DNA from: Saprospiraceae bacterium
Lineage (GTDB): Bacteria; Bacteroidota; Bacteroidia; Chitinophagales; Saprospiraceae
Length of the DNA stretch: 60,793 nucleotides
NCBI GenBank assembly: GCA_022844265.1
Contig: JALHMA010000003.1
Location: 1-60,793 of the forward strand
Reading direction: 5' to 3'
The first letter of the stretch is position 1, and each line of letters opens with the position of its first letter. The position numbers and the translations under genes were made by a program. Below are positions 157 to 5,652 of this stretch, piece after piece. The notes beneath the pieces are model-generated. The model had not been told where the DNA came from, did no database searches, and worked only from the letters and a program-made list of their open reading frames with translations.

Positions 157-1041
157 TCATGCGGCTTGCCGCATTTCTTCGGTGATTTCGACCTCCATTG
201 CCTCGGTTTTGAGCAGGAAATTGGCGGCTTTCTCGGCGGCGCTGGCAGCGGTCATCAGTAGGCGGGCGTCGCCGTGCAGGGCGTTTATCCAGGATTGCAG
301 GTAGGCGGCGGTGTTTTCTACCAAGTCCTCGACGACGATGCCGGAATGGGCGGCAAGGAACGAGGCGGACATCTCAGCTACGAGTTCCTCCCGGCTGTAC
401 TTTTCAGAGCCAAACGAGTTTTTGATTTCCCGGTTGAGGCGGGAAGAATGACCCGTCCAGTGGCTCAACTCGTGGAAATAAGTGTGGTAATATTTTTCCG
501 GGCTTTCAAACTCGGCGAGGTCGGGCATTAACAGTTTGTCGAACAGGGGCGAATAGGCGGGTTCGCCCTTGGCGACTTCGTGCTGGTTGCTGGAAAGGAT
601 GGCTTCACATTCGCCAATCCGGGCGGGGATGGCTTCGGGCTTTTCTTCCCGGAACATTTCAGCCGTAAAACCCTCGATGTCGAGGACGTTGAAAACCCGG
701 TACTCGGAGACGAAAGGCACAACTTTTTCAGCCTCTTTTTTAGTCTCGACCCGCTTGCCGTCGGCGTCAAAAAAGAGCATTTTCCAGAAATAGATGGGAA
801 GGGATTTTGCGCCCTTTTTGACCCGGTGCCCCGCTCCGCTGATTTGGTGGAATGTGGCAAAGCGTGGCACCTCAAAGCCGTCCAACATGAAACGGTTGAT
901 GCCCCGGTAAACATGGCCCGTGAAATGGTTGCGGGCTGCGCCCATCACAATTTGGTTCCAGGTGCGACGCCACGGCACGACGCCTTTTTCAAGCTGCGAA
1001 ATGATGCGGGCAGTCATTTCTTCAAATTTATCCTTTTTCAT
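157..1041 (-). CDS. ArdC-like antirestriction protein / zincin-like metallopeptidase (DUF1738-type)
   Basis: Internal ATG at 1041 gives MKKDKFEEMTARIISQLEKGVVPWRRTW...; HELSHWTGHSSRLNR zinc motif and EELVAEMSASFL are typical of ArdC-type proteins. Confidence 0.85.
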   Translation of the reverse strand: MKKDKFEEMTARIISQLEKGVVPWRRTWNQIVMGAARNHFTGHVYRGINRFMLDGFEVPRFATFHQISGAGHRVKKGAKSLPIYFWKMLFFDADGKRVETKKEAEKVVPFVSEYRVFNVLDIEGFTAEMFREEKPEAIPARIGECEAILSSNQHEVAKGEPAYSPLFDKLLMPDLAEFESPEKYYHTYFHELSHWTGHSSRLNREIKNSFGSEKYSREELVAEMSASFLAAHSGIVVEDLVENTAAYLQSWINALHGDARLLMTAASAAEKAANFLLKTEAMEVEITEEMRQAA

Positions 1042-1174
1042 GGCTTGGTTGATTTTTGACAAAGCAGCCCCCGTCCGCAAGAAGCGGAAAGGCTGGATTG
1101 GTTTGAAAATTTGATGTTGGAAATGCCCCCGACCTTTCAGCCGGGGGCGAGGATAGACAAACGACAACTTATTT

Positions 1175-1822
1175 TCAGGCTGCCTTTCTTTCCTCCTTGG
1201 GTGTGAACTCTGTCAGCAGGGCGGTTTGGCGTTCCTTTTCGGCTTCGATTTCTGCTCTCGTCGGCTCCAAGTGGGTGCTGTAATTCTCGGCAAAAAGCGT
1301 CTTGGCTTCCATCGTATCGGAGCGGTAGATGTGGAAATGGGTAGCTTCGATGTCCAAAATGAGGCTTCGATGTTTTTCCAGTTCCTTTTTTGGAAGCGGC
1401 GTAAAATCGAAGAAAGCCATGTAGTAGGGAGCGCCCTCTTTGTTGGTCTTTTTCTCCAGCTTCACCGTCCAAAGCACCTCGCACAAGCCCCGTTTTTCGT
1501 AGAAAAGGTCACGGGCTGCCTCGCTCAGGTTCTGGACGCTGAACCCGTGGAACATGAACACGCCGAGGTGTCCTTCCTCGTTCACAAAGTACACTTCGCA
1601 CCATTTCTTGACGGGCTGCCCGAAAAGCCCATCCTCCAAGCAGCGAAAGGCAACGGGGATGACCTTGAACGTTTCGCCGGGCTTGGTGACCTGTTGCCTT
1701 CCTTCGAGGTTCAGGACGCCTTTTCCGAGGTCAAGGCGGTAGGAGCGGGGATTGCCGGGCATGTAGCGGGTTTCGAGGGTTTCGAGTTTCTTGATGTCTG
1801 AAATCGGGAGCAGGTTTTTCAT
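1175..1822 (-). CDS. Hypothetical protein of mobile-element region
   Basis: 215-aa ORF with normal composition, same strand as and immediately upstream of the ardC-like gene. Confidence 0.6.
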   Translation of the reverse strand: MKNLLPISDIKKLETLETRYMPGNPRSYRLDLGKGVLNLEGRQQVTKPGETFKVIPVAFRCLEDGLFGQPVKKWCEVYFVNEEGHLGVFMFHGFSVQNLSEAARDLFYEKRGLCEVLWTVKLEKKTNKEGAPYYMAFFDFTPLPKKELEKHRSLILDIEATHFHIYRSDTMEAKTLFAENYSTHLEPTRAEIEAEKERQTALLTEFTPKEERKAA

Positions 1823-2029: not shown

Positions 2030-2344
2030 CTAAAACGGGAGCATCCAGCCTTCCAATTCCTCGGAGACCTGTTCCGCACTTGCCCACGGGGCGGCATGGA
2101 CGGAATAATGCCCCTTGCCATAAGGCACGACCAAGCGGATGAACCTCATGCCCTCCTCTTTTGCCTTGCCGGGGCAGGCGATTTCTGGGAAGAAATACGG
2201 GGGTGGGAGAAAGACCTTGAACTGCCTGAAAATAGGCTCGATGTCAAAAGGGAACTCGATGGAAGGTGGCGGCTCCATCTGCCGCTCGGCGTAGGCTATA
2301 CGGGCAGCCTCAACGCTTTGTGCGAGGTAAGTTGTGCTTGTCAT
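2030..2344 (-). CDS. Small hypothetical protein
   Basis: ORF from MTSTTYLAQSVEAARIAYAERQMEPP...; preceded on the minus strand by TATCTTTA and the GTTAATC..AAATAAATGAC leader. Confidence 0.5.
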   Translation of the reverse strand: MTSTTYLAQSVEAARIAYAERQMEPPPSIEFPFDIEPIFRQFKVFLPPPYFFPEIACPGKAKEEGMRFIRLVVPYGKGHYSVHAAPWASAEQVSEELEGWMLPF

Positions 2345-2374
2345 TTTGTCATTTATTTTGCGATTAACAATACC

Positions 2375-2405
2375 TAAAGATAAACTGAATGTTTGAATTA
2401 AACAA
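2375..2405 (-). promoter_or_regulatory. Putative Bacteroidota-type promoter, copy 1
   Basis: Minus strand: TTGTTT-N17-TATCTTTA, followed by leader GTTAATCGCAAAATAAATGAC (2348-2368). Confidence 0.5.
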
Positions 2406-2448
2406 CTGATTGTCAAGTGTTTAGATACATTTTTTTATCTTCAAATTA

Positions 2449-2990
2449 TCAAAAAAGACGGCCACTAAAAGCAGGCAAAAACCACCAACCACCGCCCAAA
2501 AAAGACCAACCACCCCACCCGGAAGGAGGCACCACACCTACTGGCAGGAACACCAGCACCGGGACGCCCAAACCAGCGGCAAGGGCGCACTCAGACCAAG
2601 AACCAGAGCCTCCCGAAACCCAGGAACGGCGGGGAGCAACACCAGCCGGGCAAGCCCCACCCGGAAAGCAGACCCACAGCGGGGCGGGCGAAGCCGCCAA
2701 AGCCCGAACCAAGGCAGCAGCACGGGCAGCAAAGGCACGGCTGCCCAAGCCACAGAAGGCAGGGGCAGCGGCACTAAAGAACTGGCAACCGGGAAAGGCA
2801 GCCGCCACCAGCGACGGCGCACCTGCACCGCAGGAAGTAAGAACCGAGGAAACCGGAACACCCGCACCACGGAGCGAAGCAACAAAAGCAGCAGCGGCGG
2901 CACCAGAACAAGGGGAAGGGCGGCGACTGCCACCCACCCCAAAGGAAGAAAAAGAAGAAAGCGCCAACGATGGGCGGGCTACTGGATGTG
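2449..2990. other. T-depleted (+ strand) / A-depleted (- strand) module body
   Basis: Hand count: 11 T in 480 nt at 2461-2940. Stop codons are nearly impossible on either strand, so long ORFs overlap on both strands. Confidence 0.85.
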
Positions 2991-3015
2991 GTGTCATTTA
3001 TTTTGATTAACTTCT

Positions 3016-3046
3016 ACAAGATACAACGATAAAATAACATAAACAA
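3016..3046 (-). promoter_or_regulatory. Putative promoter, copy 2, with leader GTTAATCAAAATAAATGAC at 2993-3011
   Basis: Minus strand: TTGTTT-N17-TATCTTGT; same architecture and spacing as copy 1. Confidence 0.5.
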
Positions 3047-3280
3047 CTGAAAATCAAATGATTGCAAAAATATTTTTAAAAATAAACTGACCTAAAAGCA
3101 ACGCAACCAAGCAAGGCGGAAGCCTACCGAAACGCCGCAAAAGCCCCTTAAATGCCAAAACAAATCAAACTGCAAATACCGCTGAATGCCACGCTGCGGA
3201 GCTTCTTCGAACTGCAAATCCAGCTTGATGTGCAGAGCGCCAGCGGAGCATTTGATAATGCGCAAGTGGGCTGAACGGCG

Positions 3281-3306
3281 CAAATAAAAGCCCCGTGCGT
3301 CGGGGC
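3281..3306 (-). terminator. Rho-independent terminator on minus strand
   Basis: Minus strand: GCCCC-gacgcac-GGGGC followed by TTTTATTTG. Confidence 0.5.
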
Positions 3307-3580
3307 GGGGGCGATAGTGTGGGTAGAGCGGAGTGGAGCCTCATTGAAGGCAATACAGCTATCATTGCCAGAATGGAGTGGAGGCCAAACCATAAAGCTG
3401 CGGCAGGAAATTGCGGAACGAAGCTGCGCTCGCCCTACTCAGCGAAGGCGCAAGCGAAGTGGAGCACGATATTGTTGCCAGAATGGAATGGAGGCTGTAC
3501 TGAAAAGGGAGCGGGCAGAGCGACCGGAAAAATGCCGATTTTCAGTGCGTGGAATGGCGAGGGTTTGCTATCTTTGGAAC

Positions 3581-3598
3581 GTCATTTATTTGATTAAC
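3581..3598 (-). repeat. Third copy of module leader motif (minus strand GTTAATCAAATAAATGAC)
   Basis: GTCATTTATTTGATTAAC on +, matching 2348-2368 and 2993-3011. Confidence 0.6.
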
Positions 3599-5525: not shown

Positions 5526-5652
5526 GTATACTTCGTACCAATAGGTTTTGTGAAATGGTACACAATGGAGGGCGGAATTTATTCCGCCACACATGGCACG
5601 GCGGAATAGATTCCGCCCTCCATTTGCACAAAACCTATTAGCGCCGAGTATA
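5526..5652. repeat. Nested inverted repeat, MITE-like/non-autonomous palindromic element
   Basis: AATAGGTTTTGTG...CACAAAACCTATT outer arms and AATGGAGGGCGGAAT...ATTCCGCCCTCCATT inner arms. Confidence 0.55.

Follow-up and report, generated by a model that had tools for sequence, protein, structure and literature searches.

An adenine-purged gene family of DprA/SLOG-like proteins on mobile elements and its possible immunity to adenine-attacking mRNA enzymes

We asked why a short stretch of a Saprospiraceae contig is nearly free of one base, and whether it encodes a protein. The window, i.e., the whole stretch of DNA that was analysed, comprised 60,793 nt (contig JALHMA010000003.1, assembly GCA_022844265.1). 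The initial annotation had described a single-base depletion rather than a GC shift, and a recount agreed with it: the + strand at 2461-2940 contained A156, C174, G139 and T11 in 480 nt. With 11 T, compared with a window mean of 109 per 480 nt, this segment is the poorest in T within the window (binomial P 3e-38). As had been stated, 10 of the 11 residual Ts followed C; the remaining one followed G. On the minus strand, the missing base is adenine.

Layout of the locus and coding status of its 182-aa frame

The features of the locus are listed in Table 1. A promoter and leader duplicated with an identical 17-nt spacer had been described. The leader does occur twice as described; the two promoter-like sites share the length of the N17 spacer but not its sequence, and the second -7 box is TATCTTTA. 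The proposed search for further copies of the leader (GTTAATC..AAATAAATGAC) yielded three in the genome, all at this locus, including a third copy that had not been described, and the homologous loci had the same three copies. The approximately 530 nt behind copy 3 (window 3046-3598) showed no evident gene and contained repeats of the type CCAGAATGGARTGGAGGC. Further along the window, at 5560-5630, an inverted or direct repeat pair (GGCGGAATTTATTCCGCC / GGCGGAATAGATTCCGCC) adjoins a Fic-like gene region.

Table 1. Window coordinates of the features at the adenine-depleted locus
Feature	Position	Strand	Basis
A-depleted CDS, DprA/SLOG-like protein, 182 aa; stop TGA 2449-2451, ATG 2995-2997	2449..2997	-	dN/dS, normal-composition homologs, AlphaFold
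Low-adenine segment, 12 A in 530 nt	about 2450-2979	-	maximal-scoring low-A segment; spans almost exactly the CDS
C-terminal GRLF, degenerate vestige of the QL(S)LF sliding-clamp-like motif seen in the family	2452..2463	-	intact Q-x-x-L-F/L/I type in 26/43 relatives
Leader GTTAATCAAAATAAATGAC, A-rich, single GpA (ATGAC); includes the ATG start codon	2993..3011	-	sequence
Promoter-like TTGTTT-N17-TATCTTGT	3016..3046	-	sequence; putative function
Leader copy 2, upstream of 104-aa gene	2348..2368	-	genome search
Leader copy 3, upstream of stretch without obvious gene	3581..3598	-	genome search; in 6/6 homologous loci
Neighbour gene, 104 aa, normal base composition	2030..2344	-	conserved in L009-L014
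215-aa gene, no family match	1175..1822	-	ORF and family search
ArdC-like antirestriction protein (ArdcN and MPTase-PolyVal)	157..1167	-	Pfam E 8.7e-25 and 4.5e-35

In T-poor DNA, long open reading frames (ORFs) arise automatically on both strands, and the initial annotation held that the ORFs here were no evidence of coding. We scanned with the neighbouring 104-aa gene and obtained six homologous loci, one of which (L009) is virtually the window itself; the other five are independent sequences. All six had the same layout and an A-poor body. The minus-frame protein was 85-97% identical among them, its changes clustered at third codon positions, and the dN/dS of the 182-aa frame was 0.05-0.18. 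In the frame test, the sense frame gave a dN/dS of 0.07, whereas the other two sense frames exceeded 2. The lowest antisense value, 0.12, belonged to the mirrored frame, as is to be expected of frames whose silent sites coincide; the antisense + ORF was rejected as a real gene. In addition, protein homologs with normal composition exist. Thus, automatic long ORFs on both strands are confirmed, but the minus ORF is a genuine protein-coding gene of a DprA/SLOG-like family on mobile elements, as indicated by dN/dS, these homologs and a confident fold. Synonymous-biased conservation in one frame, which had been named as the sign of an ordinary protein, was found. The suggested DGR-like adenine mutator with hypervariable bodies was not: the bodies are conserved under purifying selection and no RVT_1 domain was found in the 95%-complete genome; we rejected DGR or other RT-based mutagenesis.

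Several observations concern the module and its annotation. In one Saprospiraceae MAG (JALHQW, maxbin.051), the complete module was present three times, on separate contigs (L009, L011 and L014). A divergent relative (L012:5085-5299) had a 64-aa ORF inserted between leader and SLOG gene. At L025, L031, L142 and L143, public annotation omits the A-poor gene or calls an antisense ORF over it.

The AlphaFold model of the window protein (24 family sequences) had a pLDDT of 85 and a pTM of 0.83. Among solved structures, Foldseek gave ShosA (8zva) and DprA (4ljk) as the best matches (probability 1.00, TM about 0.5, E 1.5e-3 to 5e-3); in BFVD, a viral library, it gave YspA-type SLOG proteins (E 2.4e-5), and the relation to LOG/PpnN was weak. 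By its predicted fold, the window protein belongs to the SLOG/DprA-like Rossmann superfamily. It did not match DprA (Pfam PF02481), and no family was found for it in Pfam, NCBIfam, PHROGs or PADLOC; A-richer distant relatives scored 13.6-20.8 bits against Pfam DprA, under the cut-off of 29.6. A QLSLF-like tail, which we take to be a putative sliding-clamp-binding motif, was present in 26 of 43 relatives; the window protein ends in GRLF. The Asp of GCxxGxD, conserved elsewhere in the family, has been lost from the window lineage, which is nevertheless purged of A and under purifying selection. A clade with normal A content (L028, L029, L032 and L034) has GDAxGxD in place of GCAxGxD. A ShosTA antitoxin would have an adjacent ShosT toxin gene; the neighbours examined here were the 104-aa gene, the 215-aa gene and ArdC.

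Profile searches located members in Bacteroidota genomes, cyanobacterial plasmids and IMG/VR contigs; gammaproteobacterial plasmids carry a more divergent A-poor relative. A tblastn search of plasmids with the window protein gave no match, whereas an A-richer relative as query found the plasmid members. Common neighbours were ArdA, an ArdC-like or other annotated antirestriction gene, Rad52, Gp157 and DUF1071. In some loci, the SLOG gene is overlapped or abutted on its upstream side by another A-poor gene, of about 100-130 aa in the plasmids (L103:1803-2192, L105:1927-2226 and L104 about 1836-2210); upstream of L063 position 4890, the second A-poor gene ends in a CPxC zinc-ribbon-like motif. 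When 297 Bacteroidota genomes were scanned by pattern for A-free runs, the matches listed included the window family, tandem repeats and apparent T-poor coding strands read backwards.

Adenine is purged from the coding strand, silent sites included

Coding-strand A across the family ranged from a normal 33% down to 0.2% (L067), and a hold-out member (L169) had no A in 115 codons. The purge was independent of the surroundings, which ranged from 41 to 74% GC; for example, A was 2.2% in L022, whose locus has 42% GC, and 1.1% in L027, whose locus has 29% A. A was equally scarce at codon positions 1, 2 and 3. At four-fold sites of 18 A-free members, A was found in 39 of 2524 (1.5%), compared with 15-25% per codon box in neighbouring ORFs, which were long stop-to-stop frames in each locus rather than curated genes. 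Thus, the purge of adenine from the coding strand acts on the nucleotides themselves. It is strand-specific, in that T remains plentiful on the coding strand and TC is not avoided there, and it does not extend to other genes of these elements. Ten amino acids made up 92-99% of residues in the A-free set (members were assigned to the A-free, intermediate and normal classes by their A content, once the data had been inspected), and the residual A-codons often encoded the conserved GCxxGxD Asp and the tail Gln. The window leader and 3' flank are A-rich; hence the message is not fully A-free.

In the window lineage, 27 columns had A in one sequence only and 3 in all six, compared with 64 and 231 in the control region; the As of the lineage are young. 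In intermediate members, silent-site A fell from 23% to 10% in the 5'-to-3' direction, whereas neighbours were flat; the gradient was seen in L018, L020, L023, L057, L059, L065-L070 and others. In the tree, which is approximate owing to composition, most A-free members clustered together in a single large group. At least one reversal is seen, in L052/L060, in which A and GpA were regained and the motifs kept.

Of the lineages that retain some A, most had lost A after G first. With protein and codon usage held fixed by shuffling, A-holding members showed z values of -6.8 for GpA, +6.3 for CpA and +4.2 for ApA; TC, which is GpA of the opposite strand, was unaffected. The effect was seen inside codons, where four-fold A after G was 3.7% vs 22.7% in neighbours, and after C 19.9% vs 27.6%. 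Across codon borders, G was avoided before A-initial codons with an odds ratio (OR) of 0.23 (p 1.7e-9, a value that overstates independence because the members are related), compared with 0.80 in neighbours, and six of seven intermediate clusters agreed. The family median was 3.9 GpA per kb vs 67.5 in neighbours, and 32 of 43 members were below the lowest of 219 neighbours; L069 contained 4 GpA among 127 A. The 25 nt upstream of the start were 44% A and yet held 3 GpA vs 11 expected (0.26 of expectation). Such A-rich, GpA-poor 5' leaders indicate that the constraint covers the message and not codons alone. These strengths are quoted on the discovery set, for which the hold-out of 18 further loci is the only independent check; most of the latter fit, L154 having 1 GpA among 52 A. 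The pattern was reversed in L145, in which four-fold A was found in 0/69 sites after C, 0/30 after T and 4/38 after G, and the GpA preference was absent from L157 (hold-out) and L057 (first set). The avoided context is therefore lineage-dependent.

Immunity of the message and its alternatives

We propose that translation of the gene has to proceed in the presence of an active enzyme that damages mRNA at adenines of a particular 5' context. Under such an attack, the message would lose the target of the enzyme, and an A-free message would be the final outcome, one that evades all specificities of this kind. In view of the antirestriction genes around it, we take the product of the gene to be a putative establishment or counter-defence factor, with DprA-like nucleic-acid handling (DprA itself binds ssDNA and loads RecA) and often the clamp-binding tail proposed above, and the attacker to be host defence. 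We tentatively assign a probability of roughly 0.4 to this reading, i.e., selection on the mRNA for escape from an adenine-attacking host-defence enzyme. In its favour are the coding status of the gene, the strand-specific purge at silent sites, the missing GpA in codons and 5' leaders, which is the target of the defence enzyme CmdT, and the mostly single-sequence As of the window lineage. The opposite context in L145, the neutral L157 and L057, the unpurged genes of the same elements and the A-rich leader and 3' flank of the window gene speak against it, and a strong A-specific mutational bias would mimic the composition. That the messages escape adenine-attacking RNA enzymes of either kind, host defence and self-immunity together, is probable; that the whole family was rewritten in a three-letter alphabet, with about ten amino acids, as immunity to such enzymes, we consider an even chance. 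The initial suggestion of a functional A-free RNA is close to this reading.

Alternatively, the family protein or an obligate partner could itself damage RNA at adenines, and the absence of the target from its own message would allow the protein to be synthesised. The purge follows the gene family across phyla and not its neighbours, and the avoided context varies (GpA in most members, CpA/UpA in L145), which under self-immunity would reflect differing specificities of the members. SLOG/LOG-type folds include enzymes acting on adenine nucleotides, and the fold relation to DprA and, weakly, to LOG/PpnN is consistent with such an origin. However, the family has no known enzymatic activity, the window lineage lost the conserved Asp without losing the purge, and L052/L060 regained A while keeping the motifs. 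We regard self-immunity as unlikely, and host defence is preferred because of the antirestriction neighbourhood.

A coding-strand-specific mutator might instead remove A (or template T) while selection preserves only the protein. The mostly transient residual As, the graded A contents and the 5'-to-3' fall in the intermediates, absent in neighbours, would suit such a process. It would nonetheless need to accompany a single gene family through many hosts and types of element, in the window genome without a reverse transcriptase, and the As were lost to G and T rather than via one transition; we consider it improbable. Shielding of transcription at the DNA level, by a template strand free of thymines that could be damaged or modified (e.g., DarT-type ADP-ribosylation in TC context), would account for the order of loss in that coding GpA is template TpC, but coding-strand TC is not avoided and the purge coincides with the message and not with the DNA around it, which leaves this reading with a slim chance.

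Cas13a cuts tRNAs with U-rich anticodons (PMC11042736), and the gene might have been adapted to translation without tRNAs having U in the anticodon, given that A-free codons need no U in Watson-Crick pairing. G-ending codons of the same U34 tRNA are kept, however: among non-A Val codons, GTG had a share of 42%, compared with 36% in neighbours, and the Val tRNAs found in the host genome were limited to UAC and GAC. Avoidance of U34 tRNAs is thus disfavoured, and it leaves the GpA effect across codon borders unexplained; we hold it to be very improbable. An ordinary protein with an unusual amino-acid composition that by chance requires few A, real and conserved as the protein is, has hardly any chance of explaining the composition, because four-fold sites are purged as strongly as replacement sites and homologs of normal composition exist. 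Evasion of MazF-type cleavage at ACA was rejected, since ACA was not avoided in intermediates (41% vs 27%) and two ACA lie at the start of the window CDS, as was avoidance of off-frame stops, since GGA and CGA are purged and TCA is tolerated.

Significance and comparison with known systems

No description of adenine-free or adenine-depleted genes was found in the open literature. The family is a naturally occurring case of Rossmann-fold genes that nearly dispense with one base of the four and with half the amino acids, which is relevant to reduced-alphabet proteins, and A-poor genes of this kind are overlooked by automatic annotation or called on the opposite strand. If immunity of the message is correct, an arms race would be fought over the base content of messages, the composition would provide a sequence signature for finding mRNA-attacking defence systems, and the residual A contexts of each member would read out the specificity of the enzyme that it escaped or made.

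The family resembles DprA/SLOG proteins (DNA_processg_A; YspA/DUF2493; ShosA) in fold and in the GSR...GxD layout; it differs in its single short domain, below the Pfam cut-off, its A-purged gene and, in many members, a C-terminal clamp-like motif. Phages and plasmids avoid restriction sites, so that mobile DNA loses the target of an enzyme, whereas the loss here is strand-specific, confined to the message of one gene and mono- or dinucleotide in nature. Adenine is likewise the special base of diversity-generating retroelements, but the window genome has no RT and the sequence is conserved rather than hypervariable. CmdT of the CmdTAC defence ADP-ribosylates A in GA of single-stranded mRNA and blocks translation (PMC11618068); this is the context avoided in most A-holding members, whereas L145 avoids another, and a GpA-only (CmdT-only) reading was rejected in view of L145 and the neutral L157 and L057. 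Finally, the CpG depletion of vertebrate RNA viruses has likewise been proposed as escape from an RNA-sensing defence (ZAP) through loss of a dinucleotide. That depletion covers whole genomes and is mild and debated (e.g., PMC8844275), whereas here a single bacterial mobile-element gene has lost GpA or all A, and the loss is near total.
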